A stretch of DNA of 47,394 nt. Origin: Candidatus Saccharimonadota bacterium. GTDB lineage: Bacteria > Patescibacteriota > Saccharimonadia > Saccharimonadales > Saccharimonadaceae. The notes under the pieces were generated by a model. It had not been told where the DNA came from. It did not search any database and saw nothing but the letters and a program-made list of their open reading frames with translations. How positions within the stretch are numbered: the first letter of the stretch is position 1; each line of letters begins with the position of its first letter. Location: positions 1 through 47,394 of the forward strand of contig JAFUCJ010000002.1 of assembly GCA_017459705.1 (NCBI GenBank). The letters run 5' to 3'. A program made the translations under genes and the position numbers. Of the stretch, positions 224 through 7,315 are shown piece after piece.

Positions 224-901
224 ATGTACGTTAATTATTTGAGAGAGCACGAGGTCACCTTGGGTCAGGCGATGGACACCGCCACGATTTGCCGGCGTTT
301 CAACGTCGATCCGCGGGAGGCCGTCGAGGGTGATAGGCTGAGGCTGACCATGGATGGTGTAATTACCGCCCGCTCCGGTTATCAAAACCGAGAGAATCGG
401 GGCTCCATCCGTATCATCCTGCCGGTCCGGCGTCTGTACGTGGATGGCCATATCTGGCAGCCCTTCGCGGGGCTGATTACCAAAGGTTGGTCTGGCAGGA
501 GCTTCTGCATGGAGGCCCACAATGTCGCGACTCATGCGGCTGGCCTGCTGATGGTGACGGCGAACTACGGCATCGTCCCGGTGGCTGTCACGTTTGGCGG
601 CGTGCCGACGCTGGCGGTAACCGAGGACATGGACGCCGTGACGCATCTGGCGTTTTACGCAAACTGTGTCACGACTGGTTTTGCCGGCTTGCACAATTTC
701 GACCACGTCAAAATCGGCGACATCGAGATTGTGCTGATGCCATTAATGTGGGCGCTGGAGCTGATTGAGGCTCCTCGGCGCTCTGTCGTTGTCAATGGGC
801 GGACGATGGTGCTGCCTGTGTGGCACTCCGGGGACGACCGCAACAGCGATGGCAGCGATGACAACGATGGCAACCGCGTCTCCTCCGAGGATGACACCTG
901 A
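224..901 (+). CDS. Protein of unknown function with acidic Asp/Ser tail
   Basis: 225 residues. The start is fixed by a very strong SD (AGGAGGGG) 5 bases before the ATG and by a consensus promoter at 148-176. No signal peptide is evident; the body mixes beta-prone segments with a moderately hydrophobic middle (about residues 95-180), and the last 25 residues are rich in Asp, Ser and Asn. I do not recognise the family. Its TGA overlaps the ATG of the next gene (TGATG), so the two are translationally coupled and probably act together; the partner is a one-pass membrane protein. Base composition is visibly more GC-rich than the housekeeping genes, which fits an accessory origin. Confidence 0.75.
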   Translation: MYVNYLREHEVTLGQAMDTATICRRFNVDPREAVEGDRLRLTMDGVITARSGYQNRENRGSIRIILPVRRLYVDGHIWQPFAGLITKGWSGRSFCMEAHNVATHAAGLLMVTANYGIVPVAVTFGGVPTLAVTEDMDAVTHLAFYANCVTTGFAGLHNFDHVKIGDIEIVLMPLMWALELIEAPRRSVVVNGRTMVLPVWHSGDDRNSDGSDDNDGNRVSSEDDT

Positions 902-1433: not shown

Positions 1434-2429
1434 TCAGGCTGCTCTGAGCGAGAGACCGAGTCCTTCGAGTTCGATCTTCATGAGCTTGATATAGCTCTTA
1501 CCGAACCTCAACTTCCTGAGACCAGATTCGGTAAGAGCGACCAGCTCCCCGATGGTTTCGATGTGTGCCCTTCTCAGGGCATTCAGTACCCCGAGATCCT
1601 CGAAGATTTCGTCAACCTTGCGGCTGAGGATTTCTTCGCTAGCCTTTGCGACCTCACTTTCCGTCTTCTGGACCACGCCAACGGCGTTCAGCACGGAGTT
1701 CCACCTGGACTGCAGTTCCGCACACGCATTGTTTGCGCGGGTACAGGCAAGCTCGCTCTCGTGGAGTTTAACCTCGGCATCAGTCAACCGCTTACGTAAT
1801 GCAGTCGACTCATACTCGGCCCTGGCGAGTTCTTCCCTGAGACTCGCGATGGTCTCGTCGCGCTCTGTGATTGTTGCCTCACGCTGCATGATACCCTTCC
1901 GGTAGCCCTCGATCGCGCGCTCGATCTTCTTGGCGTCGGGCTTTTCCAGAGAGCGCAGCTTGGCTTCGAGGGCAGCGTTCTGCTTTTTCAGCTTGCCGTT
2001 CTCGACCAGCATCCTGCCGTTCCCCTCAATGACGTTGCGCATCTGAATCCCCATCGTATTGATAGTTGCTTTCATTGCGTAGACATCTTCTTTCGCGACA
2101 GCGAGATCGCTCAGCCGCCTTGCGGGGGACCTACCCCTGAGGAGTTCAATGCATTTCGCAATGATCCTAGAAGTCTGCCCCTCCCTCAGCTTAAAGCGTT
2201 TCGCGACGTCGCGCTGTGATTCGCGCACTCTGCCGCCGAGGCCATAACAGGAGAGGAAAATCTCCCTCATCGTCTCGTCAGGCAGGGTATCGTATACGAT
2301 TTTTACCACCTCGGGTTCAAGGTCCGGACTGATGCTAGCGCACCGGCCAGCGAGATCGTTCTCAAAGACCTTGTTAAAAACGTTCTCGCTGGGAGTGTTT
2401 TTGACAGAACCGCAATAGTTGGTTGTCAT
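1434..2429 (-). CDS. Putative transcription factor: sigma-region-4-like HTH, coiled coil, alpha-CTD-like domain
   Basis: 331 residues from the ATG at 2429, chosen because AGGAAGGAG stands 9 bases upstream; an in-frame ATG at 2486 has a poor SD. Residues about 48-98 read like sigma-70 region 4 (LPDETMREIFLSCYGLGG, then a helix-turn-helix ending ECIELLR-like as KCIELLR). Residues 140-265 are highly charged with heptad character, a long coiled coil. Residues 270-329 closely follow the RNA polymerase alpha C-terminal domain (VDEIFEDLGVLNALRR, IETIGELVALTE, LGLSLR). In the alignment the alpha-CTD DNA-contact Arg265 is Gly280, Asn268 is kept as Asn283, and Lys298-Ser299 are Ser312-Tyr313. The protein therefore joins two pieces of the transcription machinery, but its DNA contacts have changed. 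Regulation of transcription is inferred. It has a divergent promoter with palindromic sites on each side. Confidence 0.75.
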   Translation of the reverse strand: MTTNYCGSVKNTPSENVFNKVFENDLAGRCASISPDLEPEVVKIVYDTLPDETMREIFLSCYGLGGRVRESQRDVAKRFKLREGQTSRIIAKCIELLRGRSPARRLSDLAVAKEDVYAMKATINTMGIQMRNVIEGNGRMLVENGKLKKQNAALEAKLRSLEKPDAKKIERAIEGYRKGIMQREATITERDETIASLREELARAEYESTALRKRLTDAEVKLHESELACTRANNACAELQSRWNSVLNAVGVVQKTESEVAKASEEILSRKVDEIFEDLGVLNALRRAHIETIGELVALTESGLRKLRFGKSYIKLMKIELEGLGLSLRAA

Positions 2430-2556: not shown

Positions 2557-2639
2557 GAGCGTACGCTCCATTTCTCTATTATAGCACATAATACTTGAAA
2601 AGTCAATGTAAAAATGCTATAATTGTAAAGGCTAAGCCT
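2557..2639. promoter_or_regulatory. Overlapping divergent promoters with two palindromic operators
   Basis: Minus strand: TTGACT (2601-2606), 17 bases, TATAAT (2578-2583). Plus strand: TTGAAA (2595-2600), 17 bases, TATAAT (2618-2623). The two -35 boxes abut in a TTGAAAAGTCAA block. Just downstream of each predicted start lies a palindrome: GAGCGTACGCTC (2557-2568) on the minus side and AGGCTAAGCCT (2629-2639) on the plus side. The layout suggests mutual or autogenous control; which protein binds is unknown. Further down the minus leader, a good SD (GGAAGGAAG) precedes a three-codon reading frame, ATG ACC AAG TGA, that could be a tiny upstream ORF. Confidence 0.75.
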
Positions 2640-2668: not shown

Positions 2669-3106
2669 GTGAAAAAGCAAAAAGTCACTCGTCAGCCTAG
2701 CGCCGCTAAAAATAGCCGCTTTGCCAAGCGCAGCGCTCCGACGAGTAAGAACCATGATCCGGACATCAGGCAACAGATCAGTATATTACATAAGGCTAGC
2801 GCCAAATGGCGCGACCCAGAGAGTATCACTATGGAAGATGCTCCGCTGTATCTTTCGGTCGCCAATATGCAGTTGTGCTCACTGGTGAATTTTGCAACCA
2901 TTTACGAGCAGGCGGCAAAGACGGAAGATTTACCGCAGGAGATCGCGGAGATTTTCCGCAATTTCTCCGACTCGATGCACTCGATCGCCTTCTGCCTTGA
3001 CGATGCTCTATCGCATGTAGCGTGCGCATACAGGCTCGGTTGGTGGCCGGTCTACACGTACGAGGATGAACTGACTACTGCGCTAGATGAAAAAGATCAC
3101 GCCTGA
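2669..3106 (+). CDS. Small helical protein of unknown function with basic N-terminus
   Basis: 145 residues if it starts at the GTG at 2669, which has AAAGGAG 9 bases upstream; the TTG at 2660 touches the SD and is unlikely. The first 30 residues are Lys/Arg/Ser-rich and look disordered or nucleic-acid binding; the rest is predicted mostly helical, with a hydrophobic stretch around residues 60-125. No family is recognised. It is transcribed divergently from the sigma4/alpha-CTD gene through overlapping promoters, so it may be its regulatory target or partner. Confidence 0.7.
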   Translation: MKKQKVTRQPSAAKNSRFAKRSAPTSKNHDPDIRQQISILHKASAKWRDPESITMEDAPLYLSVANMQLCSLVNFATIYEQAAKTEDLPQEIAEIFRNFSDSMHSIAFCLDDALSHVACAYRLGWWPVYTYEDELTTALDEKDHA

Positions 3107-3216: not shown

Positions 3217-5316
3217 TTACTTCGCGTTGCGCTTTTCGATAATCTCGGCGGCTACGTTCGGTGGTACTTCCTCGTATCCGAAGAGTTCCATTGACGAAGC
3301 TGCACGACCCTGGGTCATACCGCGAAGGTCGCCGGTGTAACCGAACAGGTTTGCGAGCGGGCAGAACGCCTTGATTAGCTTGGCGCCACCGTTCAAATCT
3401 TCCATCTCATCGATGCGACCTCGGCGAGAGTTGATGTCGCCGATAACGTCACCCATGAACTCCTCCGGAGTGGTGATTTCCATTTTCATCACCGGCTCGA
3501 GTAGTACTGGGTTGGCTTTCTTGATACCCTCGCGAGTAGCCAGCGCACCTGCGAGCGTAAAGGCAAGCTCGGACGAGTCGACGTCGTGGTATGAACCATC
3601 ATAGAGCGTGGCTTTGACGTCGACTACCGGATATCCGGCAATCACGCCACCAGCCAAAGTGTCTTCGATACCTTTCTGGACTGGTTTGCGGTACTCTTGT
3701 GGCACTACGCCGCCCTTGATCATGTCAATAAACTCAAAGCCCTTCCCCGGCTCATTCGGCTCAAACTTCACCCATACGTCACCATACTGACCGCGACCAC
3801 CAGACTGCTTGATATGCTTACCTTGCGCTTCGGCGGTGCCACGGATAGTCTCGCGATACGCTACTTGTGGGGCGCCAGTATTCGCCTCGACGTTGTGCTC
3901 GCGCTTCAAGCGGTCGATAATGATTTCAAGATGCAACTCGCCCATACCAGAAATAATAGTCTGACCAGTTTCTTCGTCGGTGTGAACGCGGAAAGTCGGG
4001 TCCTCTTCGGCGAGCTTGGCTAGACCGAGGCCCATTTTCTCTTGGTCGGCCTTTGTCTTTGGCTCCACCGCAATCGATACTGGTGGATCTGGGAACTCGA
4101 TTGATTCGAGCAAAATCGGATGTGCTGGGCTACAAAGTGTCGTACCAGTAGTGACATTTTTGAGACCAACCACCGCGGCGATATCGCCGGCGCCGATTTC
4201 TGCGATGTCCTTGCGGTCGTTGGCGTGCATCCGGACCAAGCGGCCGATGCGTTCCTTGTCACCCGTTGACGCGTTGAGTACGGTGTCGCCAGATTTGAGT
4301 TTGCCGGCATACACGCGGATAAAGATTAGCTTACCGACGAATGGATCCGTCGCAATCTTGAATGCTAGCGCTGTGAGTGGCTCAGAATCGTCTGCCTTGC
4401 GGACAATCTGGTCGCCAGTCTTCGGATCGGTGCCCACGGTTTGTCCCTGGTCACGGTCGAGCGGGGATGGTAGATAGTCAGTCATGAGGTCGAGAACTTT
4501 CTCAACAATCACGCCACGGCCGTCGCCGCCAGTCACCAAGAAGAAATCACCGTCAAGCACGCGCTTTCTGAGAGCGGCTTTCAGCTCAATCTCGGTGATA
4601 GCTTCCTCGCCTTGCGAGAAATACTTGTCCATCAGGGCCTCGTCAGCCTGGACGGCTTCCTCTATCAGCATTGAACGAGCGTTCTTGGCTTTTTCAAGCA
4701 TGTCAGCTGGAATCTCGCCGACGGTCAATTCGTGGTCAGCGTAATCCTTGTAGGTGTAAGCCTTCATATCGACGAGGTCGACCACGCCGCAGATGTCCTT
4801 CTCGAAGCCAATCGGCAAATGAATCGCCACGGCGTTCTTGGAGAGTCGTTTGTGAATCGAGTCAAGCGACTTGTAGAAATCGCCACCGATTTGATTGATT
4901 TTGTTGACGAAACAAATGCGCGGGATACCGTACTTGGTAGCCTGACGCCACACGGTCTCAGACTGCGCCTCGACGCCCATTTTGCCGTCGAATACCACTA
5001 CGGCGCCATCAAGCACGCGAAGCGAACGCTCGACCTCAGCGGTGAAATCGATGTGACCCGGGGTATCGATAATGTTAATTTGATGATGTTTCCAGTACAC
5101 AGTCACGGCCGCGGAAGTAATAGTGATGCCGCGTTCCTTTTCCTGCTCCATCCAGTCAGTGTCAGCGCCACCGGTGCCGCCTTTCACGAGGTCAATTTTA
5201 TGTTTCAACCCAGTGCGGTACAGAATCGCCTCAGAGGTCGTGGTCTTGCCGGCATCGATATGCGCGATGATACCAATATTGCGCATCTTTGCCAAGTCAT
5301 TGATTTCAGTAGCCAT
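3217..5316 (-). CDS. fusA: Elongation factor G
   Basis: 699 residues, normal length. EF-G is the GTPase that moves tRNA and mRNA through the ribosome. Visible motifs are the P-loop AHIDAGKT (18-25), the switch region with RGITITSAA, DTPGH (84-88), and domains II-V ending in the usual FGYEEVP region. The guanine-specificity motif is odd: residues 138-141 read NKIN where EF-G normally has NKxD; the codon is AAT. The ATG at 5316 has the SD AAGGAG. The gene stands alone, not beside rpsL-rpsG (42.8-43.7 kb) as in the classical str operon. Confidence 0.97.
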   Translation of the reverse strand: MATEINDLAKMRNIGIIAHIDAGKTTTSEAILYRTGLKHKIDLVKGGTGGADTDWMEQEKERGITITSAAVTVYWKHHQINIIDTPGHIDFTAEVERSLRVLDGAVVVFDGKMGVEAQSETVWRQATKYGIPRICFVNKINQIGGDFYKSLDSIHKRLSKNAVAIHLPIGFEKDICGVVDLVDMKAYTYKDYADHELTVGEIPADMLEKAKNARSMLIEEAVQADEALMDKYFSQGEEAITEIELKAALRKRVLDGDFFLVTGGDGRGVIVEKVLDLMTDYLPSPLDRDQGQTVGTDPKTGDQIVRKADDSEPLTALAFKIATDPFVGKLIFIRVYAGKLKSGDTVLNASTGDKERIGRLVRMHANDRKDIAEIGAGDIAAVVGLKNVTTGTTLCSPAHPILLESIEFPDPPVSIAVEPKTKADQEKMGLGLAKLAEEDPTFRVHTDEETGQTIISGMGELHLEIIIDRLKREHNVEANTGAPQVAYRETIRGTAEAQGKHIKQSGGRGQYGDVWVKFEPNEPGKGFEFIDMIKGGVVPQEYRKPVQKGIEDTLAGGVIAGYPVVDVKATLYDGSYHDVDSSELAFTLAGALATREGIKKANPVLLEPVMKMEITTPEEFMGDVIGDINSRRGRIDEMEDLNGGAKLIKAFCPLANLFGYTGDLRGMTQGRAASSMELFGYEEVPPNVAAEIIEKRNAK

Positions 5317-6896: not shown

Positions 6897-7315
6897 TAGA
6901 TGGCTCCTAAATCTTTTAATGCCTGTTTATAAATCGAAAGAGCGTTTGACGCCTGCTTGTACGACAATTCTAGGTCGTCTTCGTGTGCGATGACGTTACG
7001 CAACTTGTGCGCTCGCCACACCGCGTTCTTGTCAGAGAACCTGTCGTCACATTTTTTCAATCTGTCGCCCATGGTTTTGCCAGGTACGCCCATCTCAATC
7101 AAGGCGCGGTCGAGCAGTTTATCGCCATTGATTAGCGTCATCGACCAAGTCGCTGGGTTGCTTTGGCTCAAATGATTCTCGATTTTGAGAAACCGTGTCT
7201 GATATTCCTCGACGTTGAACTTATGCGTGCGCTTCTTGGTTAGCATCATAGCGACGATCATCAGCGCTGCAATAATGATTACCGCGATGATGAAAGTGAT
7301 TACGCCGCCGTCCAT
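6896..7315 (-). CDS. Membrane-anchored HEPN-like protein in the gat operon
   Basis: 139 residues. One N-terminal membrane segment (about 5-25) is followed by a basic stretch and a helical cytoplasmic domain. Residues 106-111 read RNVIAH, the Rx4H motif with an Asn after the Arg that marks many HEPN-domain ribonucleases and nucleotide-binding proteins; the preceding WRAHKL and following E fit as well. The gene lies between gatA and gatB in one operon, with SD GGAGG, and overlaps gatB by one base. Assignment to HEPN is from the motif only; RNase activity and any link to tRNA amidation are inference. Confidence 0.65.
   Translation of the reverse strand: MDGGVITFIIAVIIIAALMIVAMMLTKKRTHKFNVEEYQTRFLKIENHLSQSNPATWSMTLINGDKLLDRALIEMGVPGKTMGDRLKKCDDRFSDKNAVWRAHKLRNVIAHEDDLELSYKQASNALSIYKQALKDLGAI

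Follow-up and report, generated by a model that had tools for sequence, protein, structure and literature searches.

Ultra-small bacteria have few recognisable regulators. Among the closest described systems to the protein considered here, the split sigma factor SigO-RsoA of Bacillus subtilis has sigma region 4 apart from region 2, with a small separate partner (PMC8103513), and in T4 the small proteins AsiA and MotA remodel or replace region 4 at promoters (PMC6755090). The protein analysed here, P0001, is encoded in a stretch of 47,394 nucleotides (the window), contig C6 of a genome of 728 kb in 10 contigs with a listed completeness of 99.87%. As judged from sequence and predicted structure, P0001 carries a sigma-70 region 4 fold in its N-terminal part and an RNA polymerase alpha-CTD fold at its C-terminal end, joined by a long coiled coil.

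The P0001 gene and its surroundings

The reading frame of P0001 is uninterrupted over its 331 codons (Table 1). The start ATG at 2429 is preceded by GGAAGGAG and has an AGGAG ribosome site ahead of it; the upstream ATG at 2486 has no ribosome site. The type of promoter seen for P0001 recurs in five other genomes that carry this gene together with its divergent partner, P0002. The real RpoA is encoded elsewhere in the genome, separately from P0001. Beyond the P0001 gene lie two unannotated plus-strand ORFs (window positions 224-901 and 901-1221), for which a Pfam scan gave nothing above the cut-off; the second has a likely membrane helix.

Table 1. Coordinates of the features at the P0001 locus and of related features in other genomes (window positions unless a locus is named)
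Feature	Position	Strand	Basis or remark
P0001 CDS (331-aa sigma4-coil-alphaCTD protein)	1434..2429	minus	ORF, Pfam, AlphaFold2
Sigma-70 region 4-like domain, residues 46-107	2109..2294	minus	Relatives' profile, AlphaFold2, Foldseek, alignment
Long coiled coil, residues 102-269	1623..2126	minus	AlphaFold2 helices, heptad test
Alpha-CTD-like domain, residues 265-331	1437..1637	minus	Pfam, phmmer, profile, Foldseek, alignment
Intrinsic terminator 3' of the P0001 gene	1349..1371	minus	
Sigma70-type promoter of P0001, TTGACT-17-TATAAT	2578..2606	minus	TG ahead of -10
Palindrome GAGCGTACGCTC	2557..2568		Few bases inside the P0001 transcript
Sigma70-type promoter of P0002, TTGAAA-17-TATAAT	2595..2623	plus	
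Palindrome AGGCTAAGCCT	2629..2639		At the expected P0002 start
P0002, 145-aa helical partner, start GTG	2669..3106	plus	
fusA (elongation factor G), flank of the insertion site	3217..5316	minus	
Convergent genes of ~105 aa	L142:6203-6520, L145:5932-6228, L150:5903-6208, L148:1485-1838	minus	
Leader hairpins	L142:4954-5029, L112:5730-5797, L061:10065-10134, L149:4045-4122 and others		

Domains and predicted fold

The C-terminal domain was recognised directly. Residues 271-329 matched PF03118 at 26.6 bits (cut-off 23.8), rising to 32.0 bits when the C-terminal piece was scanned alone, and phmmer linked P0001 to alpha chains in the PDB with E 2e-5. A C-terminal profile built from 11 relatives (A7) found the alpha-CTD with E 2.5e-9, and Foldseek aligned the predicted domain with 1z3e_B over 66 columns with an rmsd of 1.1 A (TM 0.90 by target length).

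By itself P0001 passes no sigma region 4 model, its region 4 being too diverged for Pfam in a single sequence; the best single-sequence hint of a sigma factor was TIGR02937 with E 0.098. The N-terminal parts of 11 family members, among them P0001, were combined into a profile (A6); its top PDB matches were primary sigma factors (E 2e-4), aligned over region 4 and the C-terminal tail. The domain of P0001 ends in an RpoD-like tail, SPARRLSDL. Cross-controls, in which the N-terminal profile was set against RpoA and the C-terminal profile against RpoD, were both negative, while the correct pairings (N-terminal with RpoD, C-terminal with RpoA) gave 1e-5 and 1e-8. The full-length relative L061 passes PF04545 (27.5 bits against a cut-off of 24.1).

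An AlphaFold2 model of P0001, made from two sequences, had a mean pLDDT of 76, with 79-87 at residues 51-90 and 86-90 at residues 270-330. It placed region 4 helices at residues 38-48, 52-62, 72-78 and 85-100, coil helices at 102-158 and 163-269, about 165 residues in total, and the alpha-CTD at 279-323. RpoS region 4 (6fi7) appeared lower in the Foldseek list, with a TM of 0.54 to P0001. The heptad pattern of residues 163-269 was equalled in strength by 0 of 2000 shuffles. No Sigma70_r2 was found in the Pfam scan and only 37 residues precede the first region 4 helix in the model; nor was the alpha-NTD assembly domain found by Pfam, NCBIfam or in the AlphaFold2 model. The PADLOC and PHROGs matches to P0001 were dismissed, as they fall in the coil (SMC-like or uncharacterised coiled coils), and the VIA-align list was set aside, being filled by unrelated coiled coils.

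A preliminary description of this DNA had read residues 48-98 as sigma-70 region 4 and residues 270-329 as an alpha-CTD, with a coiled coil between them, and had proposed profile searches, structure prediction and a search of other CPR genomes as checks. The relatives' profile and AlphaFold2 bear out the first domain, Pfam and Foldseek the second, and the predicted helices and the heptad test the coil. Both ends were placed in the region 4 and alpha-CTD families, both folds were predicted, and the same domain order was found across Patescibacteria.

Contact residues

P0001 was aligned to the RpoD and RpoA of its genome, with E. coli numbering and the DNA-contact residues of sigma70 and alpha as reference. 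In the recognition helix, the positions of sigma70 Arg584, Glu585, Arg588 and Gln589 are occupied by Glu, Gly, Ser and Arg. In the alpha-CTD, Arg265 is replaced by Gly and Lys298-Ser299 by Ser-Tyr, in agreement with the preliminary description. Position 265 is Arg in 0 of 12 long-coil members, the group to which P0001 belongs, against 8 of 11 other fusions. The positions of Arg588-Gln589 read 'SR' or 'SK' in 6 of the 12 long-coil members, and the recognition-helix residues otherwise differ widely among them, which means that their targets are either few or not the same from member to member. The net charge is +5 over the 30 residues of the HTH helix and tail in P0001, and 0 in its alpha-CTD end.

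The -35 and UP-element contact residues are thus largely lost in the long-coil clade, and these changes suggest that the clade has left ordinary promoter recognition. The earlier proposal that such a protein could act as a sigma/alpha mimic at ordinary promoters becomes less likely for this clade. Some relatives outside it may, from their residues, keep ordinary promoter recognition: the short-coil L048 retains all four region 4 contacts and the alpha-CTD set, and L187, from another Patescibacteria family, mostly retains the canonical contact residues of both domains.

A family of fusions

The same genome encodes a second fusion (L080:5644-6696, on contig C10), with the order HTH_3, region 4, coil and alpha-CTD, in which Pfam matched region 4 at 50 bits and the alpha-CTD at 29.7 bits. 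This gene adjoins prfA and prmC, and its alpha-CTD retains Arg265. In 198 genomes of the family, 26 besides the source genome have more than one alpha-CTD match. Ten ORFs, nine from this set plus L061, were scanned with Pfam, and in them region 4, the alpha-CTD or both exceed the Pfam cut-offs. For region 4, nine reached E 0.001 or better and the remaining one E 0.005; nine also gave an alpha-CTD match, that of L061 lying under the Pfam listing limit and being recognised by the clade profile only.

Whole-genome searching covered Patescibacteria. The phylum-wide profile search was swamped by RpoD and RpoA, and only two-domain matches were kept (G389 and G571, with G663 partial). Fusions occur in at least two other Patescibacteria families besides many other Saccharibacteria; region 4 and the alpha-CTD scored 62.6 and 59.7 bits in L187, and 22.1 (just below the cut-off) and 68.2 bits in L186. 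Within the genus, the profile of the long-coil group found it in 15 of 174 genomes. A named relative from the same genus is RGIG7166, a Saccharibacteria MAG obtained from the abomasum of water buffalo. In a tree, 12 long-coil proteins formed one group against four short-coil fusions (support 96/97), with P0001 as a long branch inside it. The long-coil members have in common an N-terminal motif, CG....TPGQN, ahead of region 4, of which the P0001 version is CGSVKNTPSENV.

Searches of phages, plasmids and viral contigs found no relatives of P0001. With L048 as the query, the same collections gave single-domain matches only, none covering 80% of the query, and two further relatives gave nothing against viral contigs. 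Among the matches to L048, H12 was rejected as an ordinary RpoA and H1 as a phage alpha-CTD protein with no visible region 4.

Several variants were seen in passing. The 403-aa product of L056:286-1494 (minus) resembles a duplicated fusion (sigma4-alphaCTD-sigma4-alphaCTD), and the fusions of L049, L067 and L071 have an N-terminus like a second, diverged alpha-CTD ahead of region 4 (SLNSIDELNMPKNIRTYYKKRVESFGELV type). The short-coil fusion at L007:1450-2169 is interrupted by two in-frame TAA codons, its frame being intact apart from these, and is probably a pseudogene. In L062, two minus-strand ORFs that flank the fusion gene (4703-5119 and 6966-7202) both end in HRTILLGY and are possible repeated cassettes. 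Read by eye, L047:1450-3000 (contig C7 of the source genome) and L048:5940-7490 encode MurA-like enzymes with an N-terminal Cro/C1-type HTH, the latter divergent from a sigma4-alphaCTD fusion.

No model of the whole P0001 protein was found in Pfam, NCBIfam, PHROGs or PADLOC. The preliminary description knew of no standard family with this domain order, which holds for these four collections; the order is nevertheless not confined to P0001, since it recurs in the genome and in Patescibacteria. A full-text literature search found no description of such a fusion, which does not prove that none exists; the parts are known, and their order and recurrence appear new.

The divergent partner and its insertion site

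The starts of P0001 and P0002 are separated by 239 bp, in which the two promoters stand back to back with abutting -35 hexamers (2595-2600 and 2601-2606). Binding within this region would therefore control both genes. In G191 the same pair lies beside fusA, with a P0002 33% identical over 83 residues (E 8e-13). A P0002 profile from three genomes led to three more, in each of which the gene is directly divergent from a P0001-like gene, so that the pair is conserved in 6 genomes. P0002 is predicted to be a bundle of five helices (mean pLDDT 74); its fold search gave no match at E 0.001 or better, and Pfam gave no Sigma70_r2 match. The divergent helical protein noted in the preliminary description is thus upheld, as a conserved partner.

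Four genomes (L112, L140, L141 and L143) show both flanks of the pair, which lies between fusA and tuf; in other members of the genus, e.g. L083, L106 and L109, fusA directly adjoins tuf. Large proteins of surface type whose N-terminal segment is VPDTG-like (L061:1121-6487 and L153:5408-9672) also lie beside fusA in the genus, so that the stretch from fusA to tuf resembles a variable site of insertion. Other long-coil members are found at other sites, often near smpB, with a different convergent neighbour of ~105 residues. These neighbours make up a second small, helical-looking family (start M(G/S).II.F), convergent with long-coil fusions that have no P0002; Pfam matched none of the three that were scanned.

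The palindromes described earlier at each start are both present, but they do not hold up as regulon operators. GAGCGTACGCTC has one perfect copy in the 728-kb genome and AGGCTAAGCCT one in the window; the two differ from each other, and neither is conserved in relatives. A comparable pair arises in 25 of 500 shuffles (5%). Owing to its single perfect copy and this shuffle frequency, GAGCGTACGCTC is not read as the operator of a regulon, and this candidate was rejected. A comparison of upstream regions found no operator common to the window and its relatives. Several relatives have a short 5' hairpin where the window has GAGCGTACGCTC.

A covarying leader hairpin in relatives

The fusion genes of relatives have a long hairpin in their 5' leader. 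In 12 aligned leaders, 17 of 20 base pairs show compensatory changes; 92.8% of cells are paired, against 33-43% when the alignment is slid, and the covariation score was reached by 0 of 500 shuffles. G-U pairs outnumber A-C mispairs by 20 to 4, which favours an RNA of the sense strand over a DNA operator, although the rows are related to one another.

A covariance model of the leader (R1), to which both strands of the hairpin score, matched a single site in each of 13 genomes from the genus, only before a P0001-like gene. The element is thus present in 13 of 15 carriers of such a gene and in 0 of 159 other genomes (Fisher p 8e-18). Since the model was built from 12 of these 13 positives and the remaining one is a near copy, the informative part is the absence elsewhere. 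It was not found in other genera among 394 genomes of the family, and no Rfam family fits the hairpin. G252, missed by R1, has a variant hairpin (z -5.9), and strong structure (z -6.3) was also seen for the leader of a short-coil relative from a different genus. The P0001 leader in the window is not structured (z +0.6 and +1.2), and R1 has no credible match in the window, the top score, 6.5 bits, falling on the strand that does not encode P0001. We regard the covarying hairpin as a candidate new cis-regulatory RNA; in most relatives a structured mRNA leader probably helps to set expression as well.

Proposed function

Two polymerase-derived folds on a rod, an altered recognition helix, a partner and a shared promoter region point to a DNA-binding regulator. 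We therefore favour a reading of P0001 as a DNA-binding transcription regulator of changed specificity, dimerised through its coil and using a degenerate alpha-CTD as a protein-contact module, and give it about an even chance of being right. The HTH, derived from the region 4 of a primary sigma factor, would bind specific DNA that is no longer the -35 box; the coil would dimerise the protein; the alpha-CTD, stripped of its DNA-contact residues, would contact P0002, polymerase or itself; and P0001 would control its own locus and perhaps others. Members of the fusion family are most likely gene regulators.

P0001 could instead bind RNA polymerase rather than an operator, with its region 4-like domain sitting on the beta flap, next to sigma region 4 or as a substitute for it, and its alpha-CTD fold touching region 4 or alpha, as a co-regulator or inhibitor like the phage sigma-appropriation factors. 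The polymerase origin of both end domains fits this, and docking surfaces may persist, given the canonical contact residues in L048 and, mostly, in L187. A protein that is sporadic in the genus (15/174), with a dedicated partner and leader, nevertheless looks like an accessory regulator and not a global polymerase factor, and we consider docking rather unlikely. The restriction of the leader to one site per genome, before the P0001-like gene, and its covariation (17/20 pairs, with the G-U excess of 20 to 4) would also suit a protein that mainly autoregulates its own message, it or its partner binding the leader hairpin RNA or its DNA. This we hold to be improbable: the window copy has no long hairpin, HTH and HhH folds usually bind DNA, and the 13 leader positives include the 12 that built the model and one near copy.

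A predicted coil of about 165 residues would allow a DNA-bridging or nucleoid-type protein, with two DNA-binding ends on a long rod; the alpha-CTD end, however, has neither UP-contact residues nor net charge, and such proteins are not normally patchy within one genus, which makes bridging very unlikely. Patchiness would be natural for a selfish or defence-type pair of a regulator and a small toxin-like protein, mobile between insertion sites, as would the fusA-tuf insertion in four genomes, the sites near smpB or others elsewhere, and the swapping of small partners between long-coil members. We give this little credit, since PADLOC and PHROGs offered coiled-coil or single-domain similarity and no specific match, P0001 has no matches in phages, plasmids or viral contigs, and the fold of P0002 was not recognised.

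A bolder reading, which we advance as speculative and doubtful, is that the fusions are trans-acting promoter-recognition modules with region 4 and the alpha-CTD on a single rod, through which polymerase, by way of partner proteins, uses dedicated promoters and needs no second complete sigma factor. If that were true, sigma-poor Patescibacteria would have gained further regulators by duplicating the ends of polymerase, each under the control of a structured leader RNA of its own. As gene regulators, the fusions would show one way in which ultra-small bacteria build new regulators, from region 4 and the alpha-CTD. They also offer a compact natural construct for studying these two domains away from polymerase, and the covarying leader would be a second, independently testable layer of control.

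Comparison with known systems

P0001 shares with the primary sigma factors (RpoD/SigA) the region 4 HTH fold and the register of the C-terminal HPSR..L-type tail, but it has no region 2 or 3 and its -35 contact residues are replaced. From RpoA it has the whole alpha-CTD fold, with a TM of 0.90 to that of B. subtilis, but not the N-terminal assembly domain, and the equivalents of Arg265, Lys298 and Ser299 are lost. Like SigO-RsoA, it carries region 4 apart from region 2 beside a small partner gene; SigO-RsoA, as described, has no alpha-CTD or long coil, and P0002 has no sigma region 2 match in Pfam. The likeness to T4 AsiA and MotA is one of described role, with no homology claimed, those proteins being phage-encoded and not built of region 4 and an alpha-CTD. 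L189:1755-2387, from Bacillus phage Goe8 (QDP42789.1), is annotated as RNA polymerase subunit alpha, yet its N-terminal part is unrecognised; unlike P0001, it shows no region 4 there, but it carries an alpha-CTD behind another N-terminal part, as the fusions do.
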